A stretch of 39,739 nt of DNA from an uncultured Anaerolineae bacterium (GTDB lineage Bacteria > Chloroflexota > Anaerolineae > J036 > Brachytrichaceae): NCBI GenBank assembly GCA_938034415.1, contig CALHLE010000078.1:1-39739 (forward strand). The letters are read 5' to 3'. This document shows positions 15,037 to 18,266 of the stretch, piece after piece. Both the position numbers and the translations under genes were made by a program. Below the pieces are notes generated by a model. It saw nothing but the letters and a program-made list of their open reading frames with translations. It did not search any database and was not told the DNA's origin. The stretch's first letter is position 1. Each line of letters opens with the position of its first letter.

Positions 15037-15411
15037 TCAGTAATACAGCCCCCAGTTCGCTGCAGCCTGATCCTCCATCATGGTCGGCTCCCACATCTCC
15101 AGGCCCATGGTGACCTTGGCAGGGCGCTCGGCGGCTTCCTGCGTCCTCTGCCGCACCTGTTCTACCAGCGCCGGGCCGTAGGGGCAGAACGGCGTCGTCA
15201 GGATCATGGTTACGTTCACGCTATCGGGTGAGAACTCCAGCTTGCGAATCAGGCCCAGCTCGATCACGCTCATGCCGAGTTCCGGATCGTACACCTCGCG
15301 CAGGGCTTGGCGCACCTTCTCTTCCAGGGCGCCGTATTCGTTCAGGTTGACCTTCGGCTCTGTGTTCGCCGGAGACTGGTTCTCTTGGCTTGCCTTCGTT
15401 TCATCGCTCAT
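15037..15411 (-). CDS. MIP18/DUF59 family iron-sulfur cluster assembly protein (SufT-like)
   Basis: This is a 124-residue protein. The core is EEKVRQALREVYDPELGMSVIELGLI (from about residue 30), which matches the DUF59 motif DPE..S..DLGL, followed by LTTPFCPYGPALVEQVRQR with the conserved Cys. DUF59 proteins act in Fe-S cluster maturation (SufT, MIP18) or phenylacetate oxidation (PaaD). With no paa genes nearby, Fe-S maturation is the better guess. An acidic, Gln/Asn-rich N-terminal tail of about 20 residues precedes the domain. The start at 15411 is set by GGAGG 8 bases upstream; a GTG three codons earlier overlaps that site. It is divergent from the basic protein gene. Confidence 0.88.
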   Translation of the reverse strand: MSDETKASQENQSPANTEPKVNLNEYGALEEKVRQALREVYDPELGMSVIELGLIRKLEFSPDSVNVTMILTTPFCPYGPALVEQVRQRTQEAAERPAKVTMGLEMWEPTMMEDQAAANWGLYY

Positions 15412-15473
15412 TTGCGCCACCTCCGGTAGCGCGGACGGCCATGTCGCATCCGCGCTCCCTCATTCATCGCGTG

Positions 15474-15479
15474 ATTATA
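15474..15479 (-). promoter_or_regulatory. -10 element for the SufT-like gene
   Basis: Minus-strand TATAAT, 62 bases upstream of the start at 15411. It is divergent from the plus-strand promoter at 15491-15518. Confidence 0.5.
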
Positions 15480-15490
15480 GCGTCCGGCTG

Positions 15491-15518
15491 TTGACATTCG
15501 CCCACGCTGAGTTAAATT
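15491..15518 (+). promoter_or_regulatory. Sigma70-type promoter for the small basic protein
   Basis: A consensus -35 TTGACA (15491-15496), a 16-base spacer and a -10-like TAAATT (15513-15518). The start codon is at 15557. Confidence 0.6.
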
Positions 15519-15556
15519 GTATGTGACGCACGAGATTGGCACAGGAGTAAGCAGCC

Positions 15557-15751
15557 ATGGCAACGACCAGCAAATCCAAGGCGACCAAGAAGACGACGAA
15601 TAAGGCAGCAACGAAAAAAGCCACGAAGAAGGCCGCTGTGACGAAGACGACGACTAAGAAAGCGGTCAAGACGAAGAAACCGACGACGCCCGAGCCGGAA
15701 GCCGCGCCCATGCCGGTTGAAGCTGTGCCAGAGCCTGAGCCGGTGGGATGA
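15557..15751 (+). CDS. Small Lys/Ala/Thr-rich basic protein, histone H1-tail-like
   Basis: This is a 64-residue low-complexity protein. Residues 1-44 are almost only Lys, Thr and Ala in KKATKKA-type repeats, like the C-terminal tails of histone H1 and some bacterial nucleoid proteins. Residues 45-64 are acidic and Pro-rich (EPEAAPMPVEAVPEPEPVG). Evidence that it is real: a consensus -35 promoter, AGGAG (15543-15547) 9 bases before the ATG, and a hairpin terminator soon after the stop. It is therefore a single-gene transcript with good expression signals. A role in DNA or RNA binding is inferred from composition only. There is no folded domain. Confidence 0.8.
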   Translation: MATTSKSKATKKTTNKAATKKATKKAAVTKTTTKKAVKTKKPTTPEPEAAPMPVEAVPEPEPVG

Positions 15752-15777
15752 GGTGAGGCAGCTTGAGCCAGTCGCGC

Positions 15778-15822
15778 AAGCGCCCGGCGCGACGAGCGAG
15801 CCGCGCTGGGCGCTTCGCTTTT
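15778..15822 (+). terminator. Rho-independent terminator after the basic protein gene
   Basis: Arms 15778-15791 and 15802-15815 pair over 14 bases (one G-U), followed by CGCTTTT. It lies 27 bases after the stop codon. Confidence 0.8.
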
Positions 15823-15837
15823 CCCCATCCCGTCCGC

Positions 15838-15843
15838 TATAAT
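15838..15843 (+). promoter_or_regulatory. -10 element for secD-secF
   Basis: TATAAT, 47 bases before the secD start. A small hairpin (ATCCTTA 15853-15859 with TAAGGAT 15866-15872) lies in the leader. No clear -35 is seen. Confidence 0.5.
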
Positions 15844-15890
15844 CGCCGCCGCATCCTTATTCTTCTAAGGATGAAAAACTTCTGACTCTC

Positions 15891-17300
15891 ATGCGTCAAA
15901 ACACATTTATCAGGCTGTTGATCGTCCTCGCACTGCTTGCGATATCGGCTTACATCGTCCTTCCGGCGCCTAAGCCCGATTTCGTGAAGAACCTGGTCTT
16001 CTGGCAGGAGCCACGCGGGCGCGATCTACAGATCAAGCAGGGGCTGGATTTGAAGGGCGGCCTGCAAGTGTTGCTGGCCAGCGACCTGCCGGGCGGCGCT
16101 CAGCCTACGCCGGAGCAGATGGAATCGGCCCGGCGCATCATCGAAGACCGTGTGAACGGCCTGGGCGTCTCCGAGCCCATCATCCAGCAGCAAGGCGAAG
16201 ATCGCATCCTGGTCGAGCTGCCGGGCGTGACCGACCGAAACCTGGCCATTGACCTGATTAAGCAGACCGGCCAGCTTGAGTTCGTGGACGCGGGCTTCAC
16301 CCCCCTCCTCGACGGCACGCCGATCTCGACCACGTATAGCTTGTATGGCGGATTGCTGTTCCCGGAGACGTTGCCGACCGGCAAGCCGATCAGCGAGACT
16401 GTGAACGGGCAGGCCACGGCCAAGGTGTACAACACCGCTTTCACCGGCGAAATCCTGCAATCGGCCACGCCGGGACTCGACAACCTAGGTCGCAACGTCG
16501 TCAACTTCACCATCAAGCCGCAGTTCCAGGAGGCCTTCCGGCGCTACACCAGCGAGAAGTTGAACCAGGCGATGTGCATCGTGCTCGATCAGCGCGTGAT
16601 CTCTTGCCCGACCATCCGCGCCGTGCTGAGCGCCGATGGCACCATCAGCGGCAACTTCACGCGCGAGGGCGCCAACAACTTGGCGTTGGTGCTGAGCTAC
16701 GGTTCGCTGCCGGTGCCGCTCACTATCGAGACCACGCGCGACATCGGCGCGACGTTGGGCGCGGATTCGATCCGTCGCAGCCTCATCGCCGGCGCGATCG
16801 CGCTGATCGCGATGATCGCCTTCATGATTGCGCGCTATCGGCTCCCTGGCTTGTTGTCGGCGGTCACCCTGGTGTTCTTCATGCTGGTTTCGCTGGCGCT
16901 GTTCGTGCTGATTCCGGTCACGCTGACGCTGCCGGGCATCGCCGGCTTCCTGCTCTCGGTGGCGGCGGCGGTGGATGCCAACGTGCTGATCTTCGAGCGC
17001 TTCCGCGAGGAGCTGCGCGGCGGACGCACCGTGCGCGCGGCGGTCGAAGCGGCCTTTCAGCGCGCCTGGCCCTCGATCCGCGACTCCAACATCAGCACGT
17101 TGATCACCTGCGCCATCCTGTTCGTGTTCGGCAATACCTTCGGCGCCAGTGCCGTGCGGGGGTTTGCCATCACTTTGTCGCTAGGCATCTTCGTCAGCCT
17201 GTTCTCGTCCATGTTTGTCACGCGCACGCTGATGCGCATCACCTTCAGCGAGCAGGCCGAGACGATCGAGGCGCGCCGCGCCGCACTGTTGGGAGTCTAG
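15891..17300 (+). CDS. secD: Protein translocase subunit SecD
   Basis: This is a 469-residue membrane protein with six transmembrane helices, part of the SecDF complex that uses the proton motive force to complete protein export outside the membrane. An N-terminal helix (about residues 5-25) is followed by the periplasmic region with QGLDLKGGLQVLLA (about 44-57), a conserved SecD segment. DRVNGLGVSEPIIQQQGEDRI comes next, and then the C-terminal membrane domain with VDANVLIFERFREELRGGR, the SecD hallmark that includes the proton-path Asp. The ATG at 15891 is used. secF starts at the base after the stop. Confidence 0.97.
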   Translation: MRQNTFIRLLIVLALLAISAYIVLPAPKPDFVKNLVFWQEPRGRDLQIKQGLDLKGGLQVLLASDLPGGAQPTPEQMESARRIIEDRVNGLGVSEPIIQQQGEDRILVELPGVTDRNLAIDLIKQTGQLEFVDAGFTPLLDGTPISTTYSLYGGLLFPETLPTGKPISETVNGQATAKVYNTAFTGEILQSATPGLDNLGRNVVNFTIKPQFQEAFRRYTSEKLNQAMCIVLDQRVISCPTIRAVLSADGTISGNFTREGANNLALVLSYGSLPVPLTIETTRDIGATLGADSIRRSLIAGAIALIAMIAFMIARYRLPGLLSAVTLVFFMLVSLALFVLIPVTLTLPGIAGFLLSVAAAVDANVLIFERFREELRGGRTVRAAVEAAFQRAWPSIRDSNISTLITCAILFVFGNTFGASAVRGFAITLSLGIFVSLFSSMFVTRTLMRITFSEQAETIEARRAALLGV

Positions 17301-18266
17301 ATGTTCGACCTCTTTCGCATCGTCGAGAATCGCCGTTACTACTTCATCCTGTCGCTATTGGTCATCTTGCCGGGCGTGCTGGCGATGATCTACAACGTGA
17401 TCACGCTGCCCACCCATACCCCCTGGCGGCTGAGCGTGGATTTCCTGCCGGGCAATCGCTTCGAGGTGAAGTTCACGCAGCCGGTCAGCGAAGATCAGAT
17501 TCGCAGCGCATTCCAGTCGTTTGGCATTGCCAACCCGGCTATCACTCGGTTAGGCGACCCGGCGGAGAACGTCTGGCAGGTTCGCACGGTCTTCATCGAG
17601 GGCGAGCGCGCTCAGCAAATTCGCAACGCGCTAGCCCAGGTGGCGCCGCTCGACGATAACAGCACGCAAATTCAGTCGGTCAGCCCAACGGTTGCCTCGC
17701 AGGTGACTCAGGCGGCCATCGTCGCGGTCATCGTCGCCACGGTCGCGATCCTGCTGTTCATCTGGTGGTCGTTCCGCAGGGCGGATCACGCCTTTCGTTA
17801 TAGCGTCTGCGCGATCGCAGCGCTCATCCACGACATTCTGATCGCCGCCGGCATTACGGCGATCTTCTCCGCGCTGTTCAACTGGGAGATTGACGCGCTG
17901 TTCCTGACCGCGATGCTCACCGTGCTTGGCTTCTCCATCCAAGACACCATCGTAGTGTATGACCGTATCCGCGAAAACCTGACGCGCCGGCGCGGCGAGT
18001 CATTTGAGGCTATCGTCACGCGCAGCTTGCTGGAGACGTTGAACCGCTCGCTCACGACCTCTCTCATCAACATCATCGTGCTGACTGCGCTTTTGTTGTT
18101 CGGCGGGGCCAGCATCAAACAGTTCGTCGCGGTGTTGCTGATCGGCATGATCAGCGGCACCTACTCGTCCATCTTCGTCGCCGTGCCGCTTGTGGTGGCT
18201 TGGTTCGAGCGCGATCTGTGGGGGACGAGGCAGCGCGCGCCGCAGGTGGCCGTCGCCGGCAAGTGA
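17301..18266 (+). CDS. secF: Protein translocase subunit SecF
   Basis: This is a 321-residue partner of SecD. The N-terminal helix (about 15-35) is followed by a periplasmic domain that begins WRLSVDFLPGNRFEVKF, the counterpart of the usual GxDFxGG motif and somewhat divergent. The membrane domain contains FSIQDTIVVYDRIREN and LNRSLTTSLINIIVLTALLLFGG, both SecF signatures. The ATG directly follows the secD stop, so the pair is co-translated. A hydrophilic C-terminal tail ends at 18266. The 125 bases after it hold no gene and no convincing terminator. Confidence 0.96.
   Translation: MFDLFRIVENRRYYFILSLLVILPGVLAMIYNVITLPTHTPWRLSVDFLPGNRFEVKFTQPVSEDQIRSAFQSFGIANPAITRLGDPAENVWQVRTVFIEGERAQQIRNALAQVAPLDDNSTQIQSVSPTVASQVTQAAIVAVIVATVAILLFIWWSFRRADHAFRYSVCAIAALIHDILIAAGITAIFSALFNWEIDALFLTAMLTVLGFSIQDTIVVYDRIRENLTRRRGESFEAIVTRSLLETLNRSLTTSLINIIVLTALLLFGGASIKQFVAVLLIGMISGTYSSIFVAVPLVVAWFERDLWGTRQRAPQVAVAGK

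Follow-up and report, generated by a model that had tools for sequence, protein, structure and literature searches.

A short Lys-rich protein with an invariant acidic C-terminal tip in Roseilinea genomes, a candidate nucleic-acid-binding protein

The stretch of DNA analysed here (the window, 39,739 nucleotides at its full length) carries, just upstream of secD, a gene of 64 codons whose product joins a loosely conserved Lys-rich body to an acidic end that is identical in all the copies of the genus. We consider it reasonably probable that this product is a small H1-like protein of the cytoplasm that binds nucleic acids; it is probably disordered, and its gene probably has a promoter of its own. 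The simplest way to account for a loose basic body followed by a frozen acidic tip would be a disordered nucleic-acid binder equipped with a docking peptide. The genus of the window is known from hot springs, and it is called Roseilinea here after one relative, Candidatus Roseilinea. Roseilinea ranks as one of the eight most active taxa in PMC11788075. The positions of the gene, of its signals and of its neighbours are collected in Table 1.

Table 1. Positions of the small gene, its expression signals and the neighbouring genes in the window
Feature	Position	Strand	Basis
64-residue protein rich in Lys, Thr and Ala; C-terminus acidic and Pro-rich, with EPEPVG at its end	15557..15751	+	ORF and orthologue conservation
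Basic body (residues 1-46), length-variable, low-complexity, probably disordered	15557..15694	+	pN/pS (values in text), net positive charge, low model confidence
Acidic Pro-rich tail (residues 47-64)	15695..15748	+	pN/pS (values in text), identical EPEPVG end
-35 element TTGACA	15491..15496	+	promoter scan; upstream comparison of 11 members
-10 element TAAATT, spacer 16 nt	15513..15518	+	promoter scan; same spacing in genus members
Shine-Dalgarno AGGAG	15543..15547	+	AGGAG, GGAGG or AGGAGG similarly placed in 11/11 members
14-pair hairpin, then short T tract; terminator-like	15778..15815 (15778-15791 / 15802-15815)	+	predicted fold, pairing
TATAAT past the hairpin, probable separate -10 of secD	15838..15843	+	also in G002, G003, G005, G008, G012, G018
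secD, neighbour outside the small-gene unit	15891..17300	+	Pfam SecD_1st, SecDF_P1_head, SecD_SecF_C
secF, follows secD	17301-18266	+	neighbour of secD
Divergent neighbour, FeS_assembly_P (PF01883, DUF59), iron-sulfur assembly protein family	15037..15420	-	Pfam match

The reading frame runs from ATG to TGA and encodes a protein that starts with MATTSK and ends with PVEAVPEPEPVG. Among the 320 window ORFs of at least 40 residues, it is the only one in which Lys reaches 15%. The first 46 residues contain 15 basic residues and a single acidic one; the last 18 contain four acidic residues and six prolines and no basic residue. Across the 11 members compared (nine from the genus and two from a sister genus, g5), the net charge ranges from +8 to +22 and the pI from 10.2 to 12.0, and aromatic residues are absent. 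The Lys/Ala-rich and highly basic composition of the H1-like bacterial proteins is thus found in the small protein, and ORF, composition and charge split all bear out the earlier note, which had described a 64-residue histone H1-tail-like protein with an acidic Pro-rich end. Small low-complexity basic proteins are easily overlooked.

The region upstream of the ORF carries putative expression signals. A scan of positions 15350-15950 returned one promoter-like site, that of the small gene, for a mean of 0.2 in shuffled sequences. TTGACA occurs within 120 nt upstream of the gene in all 11 members, for about 0.009 occurrences expected per 90 nt from the frequency of the hexamer in the window, although the 11 occurrences are not independent counts because the sequences are related. 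In the genus, the hexamer found 16 nt after TTGACA is TAAATT (6/9), TAGAGT (2/9) or TACATT (1/9), and the two g5 members (G012 and G018) show no convincing -10 element at that spacing. In one genus genome (G007) TTGACA belongs to the terminal part of an upstream ORF, and its presence may be due to chance. Of the signals noted earlier in the window, the consensus -35 and a Shine-Dalgarno sequence (AGGAG in the window) are present in 11/11 members. Directly past the -10 element, the sequence G[TC]GACGCA (window 15523-15530) is kept in G000, the genome of the window, and in G001, G002, G003, G006 and G008; it is possibly an operator or a leader element.

The two parts of the protein have evolved in opposite ways. 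Across the genus the protein ranges in length between 54 and 75 residues, along with Lys/Thr/Ala repeats (the G007 sequence being aligned without its Met), whereas the C-terminal EPEPVG is identical in the nine genus copies and EPVG is found in all 11 members once g5 is included. When all pairs of the nine genus copies are pooled, pN/pS amounts to 0.50 in the body, against 0.21 over the last 18 codons, 0.11 over the last 12 and 0.03 over the last 7, these figures being descriptive since the pairs share history. Restricting the comparison to the four closest genomes gives 0.55 (body) and 0.07 (last 18 codons). Of the 106 pairwise differences that affect the last 7 codons, 98 lie at third positions of the forward frame. 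Comparison of the sequences thus indicates that selection acts on the tip while the rest drifts, and holding one end fixed in this way predicts a specific partner. As regards the two-part charge pattern emphasized by the earlier note, the design itself is upheld by this opposition between loose body and frozen tip; the binding roles then given to the two ends, nucleic acid for one and protein for the other, are what such a design would suggest.

The third-position bias also bears on the strand that is read. A 117-residue ORF (15475-15828) is open on the opposite strand of the window and might have been the real product. This idea is scarcely credible: the bias in the last 7 codons is that of the forward frame, the Shine-Dalgarno sequence and the promoter fit the forward ORF, and the antisense frames across the coding sequence are interrupted by stops in three, three and four of the nine members, the frame of the 117-residue ORF itself being interrupted in 3/9. 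With ORF, -35, Shine-Dalgarno and tail all conserved, the view that the window holds a real, well-signalled small gene is borne out, and on the evidence of the sequences we take the 64-codon ORF to be a real gene.

The structure predicted for the window protein by AlphaFold2 is of low confidence (mean pLDDT 63.2, pTM 0.13, all residues below 90), the highest pLDDT values (74-75) being found in the tail; nine similar sequences only were available as input. The small protein is likely to be intrinsically disordered. Disorder is likely rather than demonstrated, as it is deduced from composition and low AlphaFold2 confidence, and DSSP gave no output for the model.

Comparison with known families leads to a general kind rather than to a family. 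With E values up to 10, Pfam HC2 (PF07382) matches six of the nine members, with 5.3e-6 as the best value, and its gathering cut-off of 40 bits is passed in none of the nine genus genomes (best score 28.4 bits). NF038052 weakly matches four of the nine members and NF038053 three (best E 3.2e-4). The window protein itself matches none of PF07382, NF038052 and NF038053 at E up to 10. More members (7/9) are matched by a valine-tRNA ligase model than by any of the H1-like NCBIfam ones; the weak family scores follow composition. Assignment to a known Pfam or NCBIfam family was rejected, the matches being weak and driven by composition, and matches to PEP-CTERM, topoisomerase, sigma-factor, tRNA-ligase and Rv3852-family models were likewise discarded as low-complexity noise. 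HU/IHF (PF00216) matches none of the nine members at E up to 10. The small protein therefore resembles the HC2/Hc2 H1-like nucleoproteins (PF07382; NF038052) as a Lys/Ala/Thr-rich, low-complexity basic protein with weak matches, but it stays below the cut-off, carries an invariant acidic Pro-rich tip, and has a window member without any match. The likeness to the Burkholderia-type histone H1-like protein (NF038053) lies in an H1-tail-like composition; here also the window member has no match, and common descent is suggested by composition alone. Among the publications listed on Roseilinea, on H1-like bacterial proteins and on Chloroflexi nucleoid proteins, none is devoted to the protein. It belongs to a known general kind (H1/HC2-like), in which the fixed acidic tip is unusual.

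Considering these properties, a mode of action may be envisaged. The Lys-rich body would neutralise and bridge DNA (or RNA) without sequence specificity. Since such a body would be non-specific, mostly its charge would matter. The invariant EPEPVG end would act as a short linear motif docking on one conserved protein partner, which would in this manner be brought to the nucleic acid. Such an arrangement recalls single-stranded-DNA-binding protein (SSB), whose C-terminal tip docks on a protein partner. In both cases a variable stretch, probably disordered in the small protein, precedes an invariant acidic end, but the sequences differ and the small protein has no OB fold, so that the comparison is an analogy only. 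Alternatively, the EPEPVG end may fold back and weaken nucleic-acid binding.

Composition does not separate DNA from RNA or polyphosphate as the ligand. It can thus be imagined that the protein is not a DNA coat and would instead be associated with RNA or the ribosome, or bind polyphosphate or granules in the manner of AlgP, possibilities that composition fits equally well but that we judge rather unlikely. The Pseudomonas proteins AlgP and PhaF possess H1-like tails, Lys/Ala/Pro-rich and predicted to be disordered. According to PMC9239181, peptides from this Lys/Ala/Pro-rich region bind DNA, and AlgP, with its KPAA H1-like tail, localises to polyphosphate granules. However, the AlgP-type N-terminal domain is absent from the small protein: in AlgP and PhaF the H1-like region is a long C-terminal tail placed after an N-terminal domain, whereas the small protein opens with its basic region and has an acidic end.

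A nucleic-acid-binding role, which remains the preferred reading, raises the question of a contribution to chromatin. No match to PF00216 at E up to 10 was obtained in the genome of the window (98.5% complete), in G004 or in G007, the last two being sister genomes, and it is for this reason that a chromatin role is worth considering. In the boldest version, the small protein would be a main chromatin protein of Roseilinea, able to stand in for HU where none is found, and the EPEPVG tip of its plain basic chain would recruit one specific partner to the nucleoid. We regard this version as improbable. If it were true, the protein would be a minimal adaptor, with a part on double-stranded DNA comparable to that of the SSB tip on single strands. 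In a genome where no HU is found, the small protein may bear on the way in which bacteria organise DNA without the standard protein. The distribution of HU was compared with that of the small gene. PF00216 passes its cut-off in 6/9 genus genomes and in 21 of the 28 genomes of the family, and the small gene is present in all six HU-bearing and all three HU-less genus genomes. The four HU-less family genomes of other genera have no match to it. Loss of HU as a rule behind the presence of the small gene therefore finds no support. A histone fold of the archaeal type as a substitute for HU was found over cut-off in none of the 28 genomes. The seven HU-less genomes of the family (G000, G004, G007, G010, G013, G017 and G022) are all small for the family, at 2.3-3.1 Mb.

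The gene neighbourhood had led to the expectation of homologues next to secD in relatives. The gene is indeed so placed in seven of the nine genus genomes (G000-G003, G005, G006 and G008), at a distance of roughly 125 to 350 nt, as are its likely relatives in the two g5 genomes, but the copies of G004 and G007 lie away from secD. In G007 the contig holding secD starts at secD, so that relocation in this genome is judged from the surroundings of the small gene itself. A match to the secD query was obtained in 26/28 family genomes. Six further genomes of the family, besides those with the small gene, have the PF01883 gene beside secD without it. Given the two relocated copies and the six genomes having the neighbours without the gene, the small gene looks like a stand-alone unit, not like a constant member of a secD operon.

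The 14-pair stem following the stop codon includes one G-U pair, and the sequence after it is CGCTTTTCC. A terminator scan of positions 15350-15950 found none, for 0.6 expected, the hairpin being missed probably because its T tract is short. The stem noticed earlier is therefore present, its status as a terminator is not supported by the scan, and 'terminator-like' is a fair description. In predicted folds judged by eye, strong hairpins follow the gene in G000, G002, G003, G005 and G008, hairpins that are strong but of different sequence are seen in G001, G004, G012 and G018, and nothing comparable is seen directly past the stop in G006 and G007. In the five aligned copies 97.1% of the cells pair, against 31-53% when the pairing is slid. 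Changes on both sides are seen for a single pair, a result equalled in 276 of 500 shuffles; as this does not exceed the shuffles, covariation is not claimed. Past the hairpin, TATAAT is found in seven of the 11 downstream stretches, including those of both g5 genomes, which points to a separate promoter for secD. A 15-nt inverted repeat (87%) links window positions 15473-15487 and 15830-15844 and is also present in close relatives; within it lie what are probably the -10 boxes of the genes on either side (CGCTATAATC, on opposite strands), with TATAAT at 15474-15479 (-) and 15838-15843.

These observations bear on another reading, in which the ORF would be a Sec-monitoring arrest peptide or leader, with a conserved C-terminus able to stall the ribosome and to control the downstream secD. 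This reading has to be taken seriously because published searches target ORFs of this kind located upstream of secDF (PMC7897499, PMC10987492). Their criteria include a small ORF in the upstream position, conservation of its C-terminus and an N-terminal localization signal (signal or transmembrane segment) (PMC10987492, PMC7897499). As in VemP, ApdA and ApdP, a small ORF lies directly upstream of secD, in 7/9 genus genomes (not in G004 and G007) and 2/2 g5 genomes, and ends with a conserved, Pro-rich C-terminus, while the Lys-rich stretch would lie in the exit tunnel. However, the small protein differs from these peptides in several respects. Judged by hydropathy alone, it has no hydrophobic N-terminal segment, the maximal 15-residue mean hydropathy, for segments that start in residues 1-30, ranging from -1.03 to 0.32 among the 11 members; values of 1.27 and 1.71 are reached further along in the two g5 members, in an Ala/Val/Pro stretch. 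RAPP is absent and one RxPP-type match occurs, in one of the 11 members. Moreover, the hairpin and the conserved TATAAT stand between the ORF and secD, and two copies are away from secD altogether. Control of secD by ribosome stalling thus appears very improbable. The main text of PMC10987492, as available, contains no word beginning with Chloroflex.

Each of the nine genus genomes has one copy of the gene, as established by protein search and then in larger DNA stretches, and the conservation in related genomes on which the earlier note had staked its claim is therefore observed. A DNA pattern encoding EPEPVG followed by a stop occurs exactly once in each of these genomes. Outside the genus it is found in five of the 387 other sampled genomes of the class, with a Lys-rich frame in none of the five, and two of these occurrences end with TGG, not with a stop. 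In both g5 genomes a longer Lys-rich ORF ending EPVG is located just upstream of secD. These two genes are likely relatives of the small gene, since position and tail agree, the bodies agreeing in composition only. The 15 other family genomes with secD have no comparable ORF upstream, one of them offering only about 286 nt of upstream sequence; in G041 a 40-residue ORF with 15% Lys precedes secD and has no EPVG-type tail. The 19 family genomes that belong to other genera show the shorter EPVG-stop pattern at 51 places, of which 29 have a true stop and the rest TGG. One of the 29 is in G018 (L074) and the 28 others are in loci L079-L117, where an open frame of at least 30 residues is seen in eleven, Lys-rich only in the G012 copy.

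At a larger scale, a profile including the g5 members (A2), used on the 396 sampled class genomes, gave matches in 15 genomes outside the family, with E values from 1.8e-4 to 0.1. One match frame was considered per genome (15), the match being assumed to start at the usual place in the locus. None of these matches was accepted as an orthologue. They are stretches of low complexity, rich in Lys, Arg, Ser or Pro, in which the tip is missing where the frame could be followed: no EPVG end is seen in the 14 that reach a stop, and the fifteenth (L126) runs off its locus. The order-level search covered the same 28 genomes as the family search. Searches with the tail pattern only yielded 347 stretches in genome_contigs (84,980 species genomes), of which one is a relative, and 266 matches in viral contigs, none of them a relative.

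Several other Lys-rich proteins are worth mentioning. In G007, a long ORF (L136, G007:C169:1722-1889; 454 codons from the match), which we take to be sigma-factor-like, starts with a similar tail, Lys-rich and then Pro/Ala-rich. A protein with a Lys-rich N-terminal extension, presumably ribosomal L7/L12-like, is encoded in G028 (L127, G028:C7). In two genomes of one other family (L121 in G315 and L130 in G300), small proteins begin with a short hydrophobic segment, which is followed by a Lys-rich central part and then by a Pro-rich end. Finally, g5 has a second small Lys-rich ORF (L137, G012:C60), with a Pro/Gly-rich end in place of the EPVG tip.
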